Part shown: piece after piece, positions 8,301-13,524 of the stretch
Position numbering within the stretch: position 1 is the first letter of the stretch
How the letters are laid out: the number at the start of each line of letters is the position of its first letter
Source of the DNA: Patescibacteria group bacterium
GTDB taxonomy: Bacteria > Patescibacteriota > Patescibacteriia > Magasanikbacterales > UBA922
Direction of reading: 5' to 3'
NCBI GenBank assembly: GCA_018823045.1
Contig: JAHJIX010000017.1
Location: forward strand, 116,300 to 148,652
Length of the DNA stretch: 32,353 bases
Translations under genes and position numbers: made by a program
The notes under the pieces: model-generated
What the model was told of the DNA's origin: nothing
The model's database searches: none
The model's input: the letters and a program-made list of their open reading frames with translations, nothing else

Positions 8301-9257
8301 TCAGTCCTTTTTACAACTCACAGCATCTCCAATCAAATAATACTCATCTTTCTCGTCTTTTTTAATGACCAAATCTCCACCAGGCATATGAACAATAATA
8401 GACCATGTATGATTTAATCCCATTTCTTCAAATAATAGTGAACCAATAACTGTTGCAGCAGTACCACAAGCTTGTGTCACATAATAAATATTTCTTTCAT
8501 ATGTTGCCGCATATACATATATTTTTTTTGCTTTTTCATCAATATGATCAATAGAAACAAGACTTGTATTGATTTCTTGTGGAAAAATCATTAAATTATT
8601 GGTAATAACCTCCCCAACAATCATTGCTTTTTCTTTCAACTCTTCACATGCATATTTTTTTGTCGCAAATACTACTGCATGTGGTTCTCCATCAATCAAA
8701 TGTTCATCTTGATAGTGTAACCCCACATGCACATGTTCTTTTAAATGAAATGTTTCACCCTCAATCTGAAATTGAGATAGAGTAAGCATTTCATTTTTTG
8801 AAATATATTTAGATACTATTTTTTTATCTTGAATAAATTTACCCATATGTACTCGCCAATTTACTCCTTCTCTGACAACAGTTTGATTTCCAGAACCAGT
8901 TTTTATAACAAATACATCTTGCTGTGCATAATGATCATGCAAATATTGGGCAACACTCCGAACACCATTACCACACATAGTTGACCAAGCAATAAATGGA
9001 TTTTTTTCATTGAATGCATTTGGCTCAAATACATCCATCGTCACATGATATCCTTGGCTATCAAAAGCAAATGGATCGCCTGAAATAACCATAATACTGT
9101 CGACACCTGCTTCAATACCTCTTTGTGCTAAATTTTTTAATTGAGAAATAGACTGTTTTAATGTTAAAATAGCTTTTTTATCAGAAAGATGATGAATGAT
9201 AAACGTGTTTCCACATCCTTGATAAACATAATCTTCTACATATTTTTTTTGACTCAT
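8301..9257 (-). CDS. dapF: Diaminopimelate epimerase-like protein
   Basis: CGNTFIIH, TMCGNGVRSVAQYL, GEPHAVVF, VTQACGTAAT (both catalytic Cys motifs); ATG at 9257. Confidence 0.82.
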   Translation of the reverse strand: MSQKKYVEDYVYQGCGNTFIIHHLSDKKAILTLKQSISQLKNLAQRGIEAGVDSIMVISGDPFAFDSQGYHVTMDVFEPNAFNEKNPFIAWSTMCGNGVRSVAQYLHDHYAQQDVFVIKTGSGNQTVVREGVNWRVHMGKFIQDKKIVSKYISKNEMLTLSQFQIEGETFHLKEHVHVGLHYQDEHLIDGEPHAVVFATKKYACEELKEKAMIVGEVITNNLMIFPQEINTSLVSIDHIDEKAKKIYVYAATYERNIYYVTQACGTAATVIGSLLFEEMGLNHTWSIIVHMPGGDLVIKKDEKDEYYLIGDAVSCKKD

Positions 9258-9308
9258 AATAAATCTATTAGAAATGGGATGGATTAGCATAGACGCTTGT
9301 CTAGAAGA

Positions 9309-10040
9309 CTACACTAATCCATCTGAGGTGGGCTTACGACGGAGGGTAAATTGGAAGGGATCACCTTTTTTCATGAATGTTCGTGTGAGACCAACGATCT
9401 CTCCAGTATAACCAAGCCATATATTCATAACCCCTAACTTCCAAGGAAGCCATGACTTACGATTTCCATCATGTCTGAGAGCTTTTAATACCTCGAGCAT
9501 ACCTGCTTGCTGTATCTCAAACGAGACAGGTTGATCTCCTACATTCAACACCTTAGGATGAATGATAATTAAGAGATCAGGCACCTGACCATTAATCTTT
9601 TTAGATAATTGAAATGAAGCATCAAGCAAGGGACATGCAGGCGTGCCATTATGGCGCACCAAGAGCGGATATGGTTCTTTCCCTAATTTTCGAAATGGGC
9701 TGCCGTTTCCTCCTGTTTGCAGCATTTTTTTAGGAATAGTAGTTAACCACTCTTTTGCAGGGCCAATAAATTCACTTTCACATACAATTCTGTCAACTGG
9801 ACCTGCCAAATGAATATATTCTTCGCGCAAACCAGGGCGCTCTTCTCCATGCACCTCATCGAGCAACATGTGATGCTCAACGAAGCAACCCAAGCGACGC
9901 AAATAAGTCATCATTTGATGCAGCAGAGCATATCCATCTCTATGCTCTCGTTCGATACTATGTGCCAAATAGATTGGTGGACCTTCCAACACAACAGTTT
10001 TCCCCTCTCCCAGCATCAAGTCACCAAAGATTTTTTTCAT
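9309..10040 (-). CDS. Uncharacterised protein, 243 aa, upstream of dapF in the same direction
   Basis: Strong RBS AAGGAG 8 nt before the ATG at 10040; 51-bp gap to dapF; no family recognised. Confidence 0.75.
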   Translation of the reverse strand: MKKIFGDLMLGEGKTVVLEGPPIYLAHSIEREHRDGYALLHQMMTYLRRLGCFVEHHMLLDEVHGEERPGLREEYIHLAGPVDRIVCESEFIGPAKEWLTTIPKKMLQTGGNGSPFRKLGKEPYPLLVRHNGTPACPLLDASFQLSKKINGQVPDLLIIIHPKVLNVGDQPVSFEIQQAGMLEVLKALRHDGNRKSWLPWKLGVMNIWLGYTGEIVGLTRTFMKKGDPFQFTLRRKPTSDGLV

Positions 10041-10152: not shown

Positions 10153-10211
10153 AAAAAATCCCGCATATACGGGAGCGTCATGTATCTACAAAAATACAAC
10201 ACTATCCCGCA
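10153..10211 (-). promoter_or_regulatory. Attenuator: antiterminator arm plus intrinsic terminator in the leader of the 243-aa gene/dapF unit
   Basis: Minus: TGCGGGAT ... TGTAT-TTTTGTAG-ATACA hairpin ... CTCCCGTATATGCGGGATTTTTTG; CTCCCG can pair either with the upstream TGCGGGA or with the downstream CGGGA(T6). Confidence 0.65.
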
Positions 10212-10264
10212 GGCGAGAGTTTCTTTTCCTTCTTTGAAACTAATTGTGTTAATACTATATTCAT
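10202..10264 (-). CDS. Putative Lys-rich leader peptide (MNIVLTQLVSKKEKKLSPAG)
   Basis: ATG AAT ATA GTA TTA ACA CAA TTA GTT TCA AAG AAG GAA AAG AAA CTC TCG CCT GCG GGA TAG; starts close to the predicted TSS; the stop codon overlaps the antiterminator arm. Confidence 0.5.
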   Translation of the reverse strand: MNIVLTQLVSKKEKKLSPAG

Positions 10265-10273
10265 AATATTATT

Positions 10274-10302
10274 ACTGTACCAGTACAAAAAGACACTGTC
10301 AA
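10274..10302 (-). promoter_or_regulatory. Sigma70-type promoter for the attenuator/243-aa gene/dapF unit
   Basis: Minus: TTGACA-17 nt-TACAGT. Confidence 0.75.
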
Positions 10303-10326: not shown

Positions 10327-13300
10327 TTACTCCAACGCATTTTCTGGCACGTCACCCAACTTTACACTAAGCAAATGACTCATACCATCATTGCCCATTG
10401 TTACCCCATAGAGAGCATCTGCGGCATGCATGGTTACTCGATTATGCGTAATAATTATAAATTGAGATTCAAGAGATAATTCTTTAATAATGTCTACTAC
10501 ACGAACAGTATTTGCTTCATCAAGTGCCGCTTCAACTTCATCTAACACGACAAATGGAGATGGGTTTGTTTTTAAAATTGCACACATAAGCGCAATTGAG
10601 GTCATAGTACGCTCTCCACCAGACAGTGTTTGGATATGTTTTATCTTTTTTCCTGGCGGACAAGCGGTAATATCAATACCAGTTAATACTTTACGTTGCC
10701 GTTTTTTCTTTTGATACTCACTTCCTTCTTCCAATTCTTCATCCAATTCATCCTGAGCGTCAGCCGAAGGATCATCATAACCATATACTTCAATTAATTC
10801 TGCCTTTCCACCAGCAAACAATACATCAAAATAACGAGAGAATTCTTTTTTAATTTGAGCAAAAGAAGCGCTACGTTTTTTCTTCATGATTTTATCAAGT
10901 TCATCAACCAATTTTTCTAAATCGCGTAATGCTTTTCCTAAATCTTCTAATTGCATATGTAATGCTTCATGGCGCTCTTGTGTTTCTCGATATTCATCAA
11001 TAACTTCATCATCAATACCACCAATTAAACTTAGCTGATATTTGAACTTTTGCACATCTACTTGTACTTGATCAATATCTTCTAACTCAACAGTAGGCAC
11101 ACCACGCTCAATAATTGGTTCTATTGAACTGTGTAATTCTTGATATAATTCATGCAACAAATCTTCTTGTTTTGTTTCAAATTTTGCCAAAGAAACTTGT
11201 TTCTCATTTTTTTGTGCCACAAAATTATTTAGACGCACTTGCACTTCTTGCATGTTATCTTGCAAGGTAAATACTCGTTGTTTTTTTTCTTCTTCTTTTG
11301 CATTAAATGCCTCCATTTTTTCTTCTTGTCCTTTTAGTGCTTCAATAATTTCATCAATACGTATATCAACAGACTCTTTTTGTAGAGCAAGCTCTTTCAT
11401 CACATCGCCATAGTCTTCTGGGCTCATGGTTTCTAATGCTAACTCCTGTTCTAATGTTGATAATTCTCCTTCAACAGTCACCAATTGTTTTTCAAGCATT
11501 TCTTGTTTATTTTTTGCTACTTGCACGGCTGATTCACTCATGCGCATATCTGTTTGCAATCGCTCGATTGTAATTTCTAACTGATCATACCCTTGTCTTT
11601 TTTCTGCAATTGTTTTTTCTAATTCTTCAGTTTTAGCGGCAATTGCTTGTGGTGCACCCCCATCAGCAAAACTCAGCCCATGTTGTTGACGTCGTCTATG
11701 CCCACCTTTTACCGCTCCGCTTGTTTCAAATAAATCTCCTTCAAGCGTGACCATACGCACCTTACCAATACCAATTTCTCTTGCAGTTGCAAAATCATCA
11801 ACAACTAAGGTTGATCCAAATACAAATGAAAACACAGGAGCATAGGTATTGTCAAAACGAATAAGCTCTTGTGCTAAACCATGCACTCGTGGATGATCTA
11901 AAAAATCATATACAAATGGTGGTATATGTCGTTCTTTTATTTTTGAAAGTGGTAAAAATGTGGCTACCCCAAAACGTCCTTGTCGTAAAAATTCTACACA
12001 AGAGCGCGCATCATCAGTTGATCCGACTACAATGGAAGAAAGTTGACTTCCAGCAGCAACATCAAGTGCTATTTGATACTGTTCTTCAACGTCTCCTAAT
12101 TGCGCAACAACTCCACGAACATCACCTAAACGATGCTGTGACTCAAGCACTGCTTGCACAGCACGAAGTCCTGTAATTTGAAATACAGATTGCTCACTTT
12201 TTACTCGTTGCAGTTGCATATCAAGTGCAGCAATCTCTGTACGTAATTGCGTACGCTCAATTGAATACATTTCTTGCTGCTGCCCCATTTTTTGAAACAG
12301 CTTTTCTTTTTTTATATACTCCTGCTCTGCTAATTGCACTTCTCCATCTAGTTGCTCTTTTTGTGCACGTAAGCTATTAATTTTTGCATCAAGCCAACCC
12401 ACTTGGTGTTGCCCTGACTTACTATATTCTGTTTGTAATTTTCCTTGCAATACAGCACGCTCACGCTCTAATATATTTTTTTTATTTACAATCTCTTGAT
12501 AAGCACTTTGAAGTACAATAAACGCTTCTTGGCGACTTGAGGCTTGTGCTAAGGTTGACAGTTCTTCTTGTGTTATGACTAAATGCTCTTGTGCTTGCCT
12601 CAATTCTTTATCAATTGCCTGAATACTTTCTTGCAATAACACAATATTATCAGCATGGTATTGCCACAAGGTTGCATAATATGTTTCTTGCTTTTCTTGC
12701 AATTGAATTGTTAATTCTTGTCGTTTTTCTAATTTTTTTACTTGCCGTGATAATGTTTTTAATCGCGGAGAAATTTCATTGAGTAACAACTCAGCCTGCG
12801 CAACATGCTCCTCTGTTCGCGCAAGTTTAAGGGTTGCTTGATGTCGTTTAATTTGAAATTCTTTAATACCCGTCGCTTCATCAAAAAAATCTTTCCGATC
12901 TTGTGGAGATTGCAATAACATACGATCAATCATCCCCTGCCCAATCACTGCATATGACCCTTGCCCAAACTGGGCTTTAGCCAAAAGTAATTGCAAATCA
13001 AATAAACGGACAACATGACCATTCATAAAATACTCACTTTCACCAGACCGGTATAATTTTCGTCCAATGACAATTTCACTATAATCCAGATCTACTCGCC
13101 CATCACTATTATCAAGCGTCATCATCACACTGGCAACACTCATTTGCCCTTTTGATAAAGAACCAGAAAAAATAATATCATGACTCTTTTTTCCACGCAG
13201 CTGTTTCATGCTTTGTTCCCCGAGTACCCAACGAATGGCATCTGATACATTACTTTTTCCACTTCCATTTGGCCCAACAATAGTTGTAATACTGTTTTTT

Positions 13301-13383
13301 CCATGTTTTGCAGGCAAGAATGACAATGTTGTTTTTTCTGCAAAAGACTTAAATCCGTAAATTTCTAATTGTTTTAAATACAT
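10327..13383 (-). CDS. smc: Chromosome segregation protein SMC
   Basis: MYLKQLEIYGFKSFAEKT, GPNGSGKSNVSDAIRWVLGEQSMKQLRG, coiled coils, hinge, LSGGERTMTSIALMCAIL...FVVLDEVEAALDEAN. Confidence 0.96.
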   Translation of the reverse strand: MYLKQLEIYGFKSFAEKTTLSFLPAKHGKNSITTIVGPNGSGKSNVSDAIRWVLGEQSMKQLRGKKSHDIIFSGSLSKGQMSVASVMMTLDNSDGRVDLDYSEIVIGRKLYRSGESEYFMNGHVVRLFDLQLLLAKAQFGQGSYAVIGQGMIDRMLLQSPQDRKDFFDEATGIKEFQIKRHQATLKLARTEEHVAQAELLLNEISPRLKTLSRQVKKLEKRQELTIQLQEKQETYYATLWQYHADNIVLLQESIQAIDKELRQAQEHLVITQEELSTLAQASSRQEAFIVLQSAYQEIVNKKNILERERAVLQGKLQTEYSKSGQHQVGWLDAKINSLRAQKEQLDGEVQLAEQEYIKKEKLFQKMGQQQEMYSIERTQLRTEIAALDMQLQRVKSEQSVFQITGLRAVQAVLESQHRLGDVRGVVAQLGDVEEQYQIALDVAAGSQLSSIVVGSTDDARSCVEFLRQGRFGVATFLPLSKIKERHIPPFVYDFLDHPRVHGLAQELIRFDNTYAPVFSFVFGSTLVVDDFATAREIGIGKVRMVTLEGDLFETSGAVKGGHRRRQQHGLSFADGGAPQAIAAKTEELEKTIAEKRQGYDQLEITIERLQTDMRMSESAVQVAKNKQEMLEKQLVTVEGELSTLEQELALETMSPEDYGDVMKELALQKESVDIRIDEIIEALKGQEEKMEAFNAKEEEKKQRVFTLQDNMQEVQVRLNNFVAQKNEKQVSLAKFETKQEDLLHELYQELHSSIEPIIERGVPTVELEDIDQVQVDVQKFKYQLSLIGGIDDEVIDEYRETQERHEALHMQLEDLGKALRDLEKLVDELDKIMKKKRSASFAQIKKEFSRYFDVLFAGGKAELIEVYGYDDPSADAQDELDEELEEGSEYQKKKRQRKVLTGIDITACPPGKKIKHIQTLSGGERTMTSIALMCAILKTNPSPFVVLDEVEAALDEANTVRVVDIIKELSLESQFIIITHNRVTMHAADALYGVTMGNDGMSHLLSVKLGDVPENALE

Positions 13384-13397
13384 ACAAAGATAAGATA

Positions 13398-13524
13398 TTG
13401 TCATCCTAAGCGTAATGAAGCTTTGCAAAGTGAAGTCGAAGGATCCCCTTCTTAGTGGAATATGCACAGGGAATCTTTCGACTTCATTCAGTACGAACGT
13501 CTGAATTATGCTCAAGATGACAAA
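13398..13524. repeat. Imperfect palindromic intergenic repeat (REP/MITE-like)
   Basis: TTGTCATCCTAAGC...GAAGTCGAAGGATCCCC / GGGAATCTTTCGACTTC...GCTCAAGATGACAA inverted arms. Confidence 0.7.

Follow-up and report, generated by a model that had tools for sequence, protein, structure and literature searches.

The window, a stretch of 32,353 nucleotides of DNA from a Patescibacteria group bacterium, carries on its minus strand smc (10327–13515), a gene for an orphan 243-aa protein preceded by the SD sequence GAAGGAG (9309–10040; gene reading, family and homolog searches) and a dapF-like diaminopimelate epimerase gene (8301–9290; sequence and family search). The epimerase has both cysteines of the CG motif, and its true start is probably the ATG at 9257. 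Further downstream lie rpsP, a KH-domain gene, tRNAs, signal peptidase, and hisS. The 243-aa protein has no family match, a profile search of PDB sequences returned nothing convincing (best E 0.96), and an AlphaFold model of the protein with its ortholog was poor (pLDDT 42.6). Its sole homolog among 59 genomes searched is in G002 (46% identity), a genome of a different genus, and G002 also holds the only homolog of the dapF gene among 39 genomes; the two genes are neighbors in both. No leader of the kind described below accompanies the tRNA-Val/tRNA-Ile pair of the window. The 5′ region of rpsP (S16; 8275–8075, minus strand) contains, after a strong promoter, a CGTCA...ACGCTCTCA-type motif that recurs upstream of rpsP in loci L019, L024, L029, and L031 and may be a ribosomal-protein leader.

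The element of interest lies between smc, which ends 24 nt before its −35 box and is context rather than target, and the orphan gene; all coordinates that follow are on the minus strand. On rereading, the promoter, the 20-codon open reading frame (ORF) and the T6 run reported by a first-pass annotation of this DNA were all present where it had placed them. The −35 hexamer TTGACA (10297–10302) is separated by a 17-nt spacer from the −10 hexamer TACAGT (10274–10279), and nine bases past the latter is the ATG (10264) of the predicted leader-peptide ORF, MNIVLTQLVSKKEKKLSPAG (10202–10264), which is kept in relatives. Near its 5′ end the transcript would therefore hold a short ORF with codons for one amino acid clustered in it: AAG AAG GAA AAG AAA (K11–K15, 10220–10234) encodes KKEKK, and the comparison with related leaders marks these as the proposed sensor codons. 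TGCGGGAT is present twice, both copies compete for a single CTCCCG, and T6 follows the second copy. Arm 2, TGCGGGA (10205–10211), overlaps the last codons of the ORF and forms the 5′ side of the antiterminator, whose loop encloses a TGTAT..ATACA hairpin (10181–10198) seen on folding. Arm 3, TCCCGTA (10168–10174), is common to antiterminator and terminator; arm 4, GCGGGA (10159–10164), is the 3′ arm of the terminator, the stem of which is only 5–6 bp, and the U6 tract (10153–10158) completes it. The earlier claim that antiterminator and terminator are mutually exclusive is borne out by the sequence and by folding, and the arms co-vary in relatives. The competing pairings it described are thus real, but its scheme overlooked an upstream arm, CTCTCGC (arm 1, 10219–10213), identified by folding and by the masking simulation below. 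Arm 1 can bind the 3′ arm of the terminator so as to enclose the antiterminator, which gives four arms, as in trp, rather than three.

The leader folds at −34.3 kcal/mol, compared with −20.2 kcal/mol for dinucleotide shuffles (z = −4.55), and in the minimum free energy fold CTCTCGC, immediately after the Lys codons, pairs with the 3′ arm of the terminator around the antiterminator. Scanning both strands of the 32 kb window brought up no second site where a promoter is followed by a near-5′ ATG, a short ORF, and a GC-rich terminator with competing arms. The caveat that Lys codons are common in AT-rich DNA was checked: base shuffles of the ORF gave four Lys in five codons in 0.16% of cases, and in the related leaders, where AAA and AAG are both used, the excess is restricted to the reading frame (4.0 versus 1.1 and 1.4). 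Since both synonymous codons are in use for Lys (AAA and AAG) and for Asn (AAT and AAC; see below), with the excess in frame only, it is codon identity that is kept.

The effect of ribosome position was simulated by masking the RNA up to 12 nt past the first base of the A-site codon and computing the probability of the terminator for 16 Lys leaders. With the stop codon in the A site, the window element gave a terminator probability of 1.00; with the ribosome at K11, K12, K14, and K15, the values were 0.00, 0.00, 0.01, and 0.15 (0.25 at K15 by another measure). None of 60 shuffled controls matched this flip. Followed codon by codon, the 2:3 antiterminator prevails as far as K15, and at L16 and every later codon the 3:4 terminator is fully formed; the switch therefore falls where the Lys cluster ends. 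In silico, then, a ribosome at the cognate codons frees arm 2 and one at the stop codon covers it. A ribosome that has yet to reach K14, or no ribosome at all, leaves arm 4 paired with arm 1 beside the U-tract; early stalls at K11 or K12 may thus also terminate. Among the Lys leaders, the terminator probability was at least 0.93 with the stop codon in the A site in 15 of 16 and below 0.3 with the ribosome at the Lys codons in 15 of 16; 14 showed both, the leaders of G016 and G017 being without a flip. When the stretch from the last Lys codon to arm 3 was shuffled as a control, the mean was 0.85. The same simulation produced a flip in 19 of 27 Asn leaders.

The proximity of the ATG to the promoter had been regarded as a weakness of the first-pass reading, initiation being nearly leaderless. 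That observation was correct, and the feature appears to be one of design: the ATG is 8–9 nt past the −10 box in 33 of the 37 leaders with a recognizable promoter (∼9 nt in the window), which makes near-leaderless initiation a conserved property and places the expected transcription start at or next to the AUG. Judged from this spacing, the window ORF has its AUG within ∼2 nt of the expected start and is probably leaderless.

Relatives from other genera and families were searched, and most of the 16 Lys leaders were gathered with a covariance model built from six of them, which gave further matches in the family, order, and class, including sites far from smc; its E-values are rough. Matches in contigs 17 and 24 of the window's own genome, as well as many matches with E > 1e-3, were judged by eye to be coding sequence or ordinary terminators and were dropped. 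The Lys leaders, from several families of the class, share clustered Lys codons (KKxKK or similar), the promoter spacing, the arms, and the U-tract. Conservation had been named at the outset as the check on the attenuation reading, and the short ORF, its Lys codons, and both competing stems are indeed kept across genera and families. In G002, the same orphan and dapF pair is preceded by such a device (MNAIQLFTLKKVKKISLAG, with GCGGGATAG...TTATCCCG...GCGGGATTTTTTT). Leaders downstream of smc were found in G001 (MNMTYLQLVAKMNKKSSPIAV), G012 (MNLILSLKDTKKKILPAG), G025 (MNRIALIFVKKAKKTA), and G017 (MIIYKNKTTKKTKKTLFAS). The arm sequences differ among leaders yet match within each, as with CTAGGTAGTT/AACTGCCTAG in G026 and GAAGGGT/ACCCTTC in G027. 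Exchanging arms across the full set of leaders discriminates poorly, since GCGGG arms are common to many of them, and only divergent leaders are informative; in these (G026, G027, G324, and G372) each arm pairs with its own partner better than nearly any foreign arm does. G372 carries tandem Lys leaders, MNNIVNKKVAKKNKV and MYINIVKKTKKSKLAFRPEG, each with its own terminator, ahead of a small acidic ORF (locus L135, minus strand).

The genes behind the leaders include those for aspartokinase, DAP decarboxylase, and DHDPS, in addition to the orphan and dapF pair of the window and G002. A leader precedes lysC-lysA in G001, which belongs to the window's genus (TIGR01048, 383 bits); in G085, from another family, lysC starts ∼10 nt past the U-tract (TIGR00657, 324 bits); in G010 a 70-aa ORF and then lysA follow the leader; and in G324, from yet another family, the leader lies ahead of dapA (PF00701, 309 bits). 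These genes are scarce, lysA being above the cut-off in 4 of 46 genomes and dapA (DHDPS) present in 1 of 14. We roughly estimate that, in a 1-Mb genome, a given leader would have one such pathway gene in the 1.5 kb behind it with a probability of ∼0.0015, so that several independent cases are not attributable to chance. Codon identity thus matches the metabolism of the regulated genes for lysC, lysA, dapA, and dapF, and some targets are not lysine genes. Counting against the match, the leaders of G012, G025, G026, and G027 precede GNAT or other genes whose link to lysine is uncertain, and that of G017 has no gene before rpsP. GNAT genes stand behind the leaders of G025, G026, and G027; the GNAT of G026 weakly resembles beta-lysine acetyltransferase, and in G027 lysA is adjacent, in divergent orientation.

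The search for Lys leaders also drew in leaders with Asn codons (MIYQIHINNNNGNNNCH and MKYISLNNNSNNNAPSGM). NNN-x-NNN leaders that share the arm and terminator layout stand immediately before the tRNA-Asn(GUU) gene in over 25 genomes (loci L147, L092–L108, L111–L115, L121, L123, L125, L128, and L137). With a sequence model built from four such leaders, matches at E 1e-3 turned up in 29 of 46 genomes; in most cases ARAGORN called a tRNA-Asn(GUU) immediately behind the match, a few weaker matches are Lys leaders or chance, and other families hold additional cases. The window's own genome has MKYQRTNNSNNNRLLKIG, in a similar layout, before tRNA-Asn (contig C11, near 41000–41300, minus strand). 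In G003 (L093/L064) the Asn leader and tRNA-Asn are followed by a gene that, from its sequence alone, reads as asparaginyl-tRNA-synthetase-like. A tRNA gene appears to be attenuated by the codons that it decodes, and the arrangement offers independent support for codon-specific sensing. A candidate Trp leader with a terminator, MNQFRVNNSWWKARLSG, is present in G012 (contig C5, L079:501–605); the next gene reads like a GCS2-type ligase.

We conclude that the element is very probably a transcription attenuator of the ribosome-mediated (leader-peptide) type that responds to charged tRNA-Lys. The first-pass annotation had proposed attenuation of the trp type, and conservation, the target genes, the masking flip, and the Asn counterpart all speak for it. 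RNA polymerase would start just ahead of the ATG, and a ribosome would load on the near-leaderless AUG. With ample Lys-tRNA, it would pass Lys15 and cover arm 2, and arms 3 and 4 would form the terminator. With Lys-tRNA scarce, it would stall at K14/K15, covering arm 1 but not arm 2; the latter would then pair with arm 3, and transcription would proceed into the 243-aa gene and dapF, which we infer to be cotranscribed. As a broader proposal, it seems probable that leaderless leader-peptide attenuators sense amino acid starvation throughout this class of reduced-genome bacteria, which genome size, gene losses, and the T4SS_pilin family mark as probably Patescibacteria/CPR, with Lys codons gating scattered lysine and DAP genes and Asn codons gating a tRNA-Asn gene.

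Other explanations can be weighed against the same data. The hairpin is the first terminator past smc, and AT-rich DNA commonly holds Lys codons, so it might simply terminate smc, with the Lys-rich ORF and the repeated arm arising by chance. We consider this scarcely credible and reject it as contradicted by conservation: the ORF, its Lys codons, the distance to the promoter, and both pairings are kept across genera, the Lys-codon excess is confined to the reading frame, and the element also occurs away from smc, before lysC, lysA, and dapA. Alternatively, the ORF could be translated and the stall driven by the polybasic KKxKK nascent chain, or by the general rate of translation, rather than by tRNA-Lys charging. 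Polylysine slows ribosomes and KKxKK is compact, but the Asn version places uncharged residues (NNNxNNN) in the same layout before tRNA-Asn, and the targets match codon identity; we regard this explanation as improbable. A further possibility, that the peptide has a function of its own, as a small protein or in trans, and that the terminator is secondary, is extremely unlikely; action in trans is known for a leader peptide (peTrpL, PMC7298713), but here the sequence outside the Lys cluster varies widely whereas the arms and codons are kept.

A gene downstream of the element had been put forward as the lysine-pathway gene dapF, and a dapF-like epimerase gene is indeed there, but it is an isolated fragment of the pathway: dapA and lysA were not detected in the window's genome. 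This dapF therefore cannot complete lysine synthesis, nor is it an obvious relief for a lysine shortage, which counts against our reading. The signal may still be lysine starvation; what the device yields is probably not newly made lysine but salvage, or DAP for peptidoglycan. Speculatively, cells short of lysine may be induced to salvage DAP compounds.

Control of lysine genes at the RNA level is known from L-box riboswitches and T-boxes. Searches with Rfam at gathering and permissive thresholds found no riboswitch, T-box, or leader family, and neither the L-box nor the T-box models matched the window or its relatives. The L-box, under whose control lysine is listed (PMC1262725), likewise provides lysine-responsive control of lysine-pathway genes but is aptamer based. 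The T-box likewise senses tRNA charging to control termination but binds uncharged tRNA directly, as opposed to the translated ORF here. Before cases in Firmicutes were described, only Proteobacteria and Actinobacteria were known to have leader-peptide systems (PMC2965389). We found no published leader-peptide attenuator for lysine, or any on a tRNA gene, in a search that was thin on subscription papers and whose silence is not proof of absence. A lysine leader-peptide attenuator would fill a gap in the list of RNA-level lysine controls, and the Lys and Asn devices, the latter on a tRNA gene, would provide concrete, testable cases of amino acid sensing in strongly reduced-genome, probably host-dependent, mostly uncultured bacteria.

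The closest likeness is to the E. coli trp (trpL) and his, leu, thr, and phe attenuators, which share with the present element a short ORF, clustered cognate codons, four arms, and an antiterminator that excludes a U-tract terminator, with ribosome position deciding between them. Unlike these, the window element uses Lys codons, has its AUG at or next to the 5′ end, places arm 2 within the last codons rather than after the stop, and belongs to a reduced-genome lineage. For the leaderless format there is a published precedent in trpL of Sinorhizobium meliloti (rnTrpL), a leader-peptide attenuator whose transcript begins with the leader ORF's own ATG (PMC7298713); it differs in sensing Trp, rather than Lys or Asn, and in coming from an unrelated lineage. 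The mechanism class is already known, as is the leaderless format, from S. meliloti trpL; as far as can be told, what is new is the choice of amino acid, the tRNA target, and the lineage.
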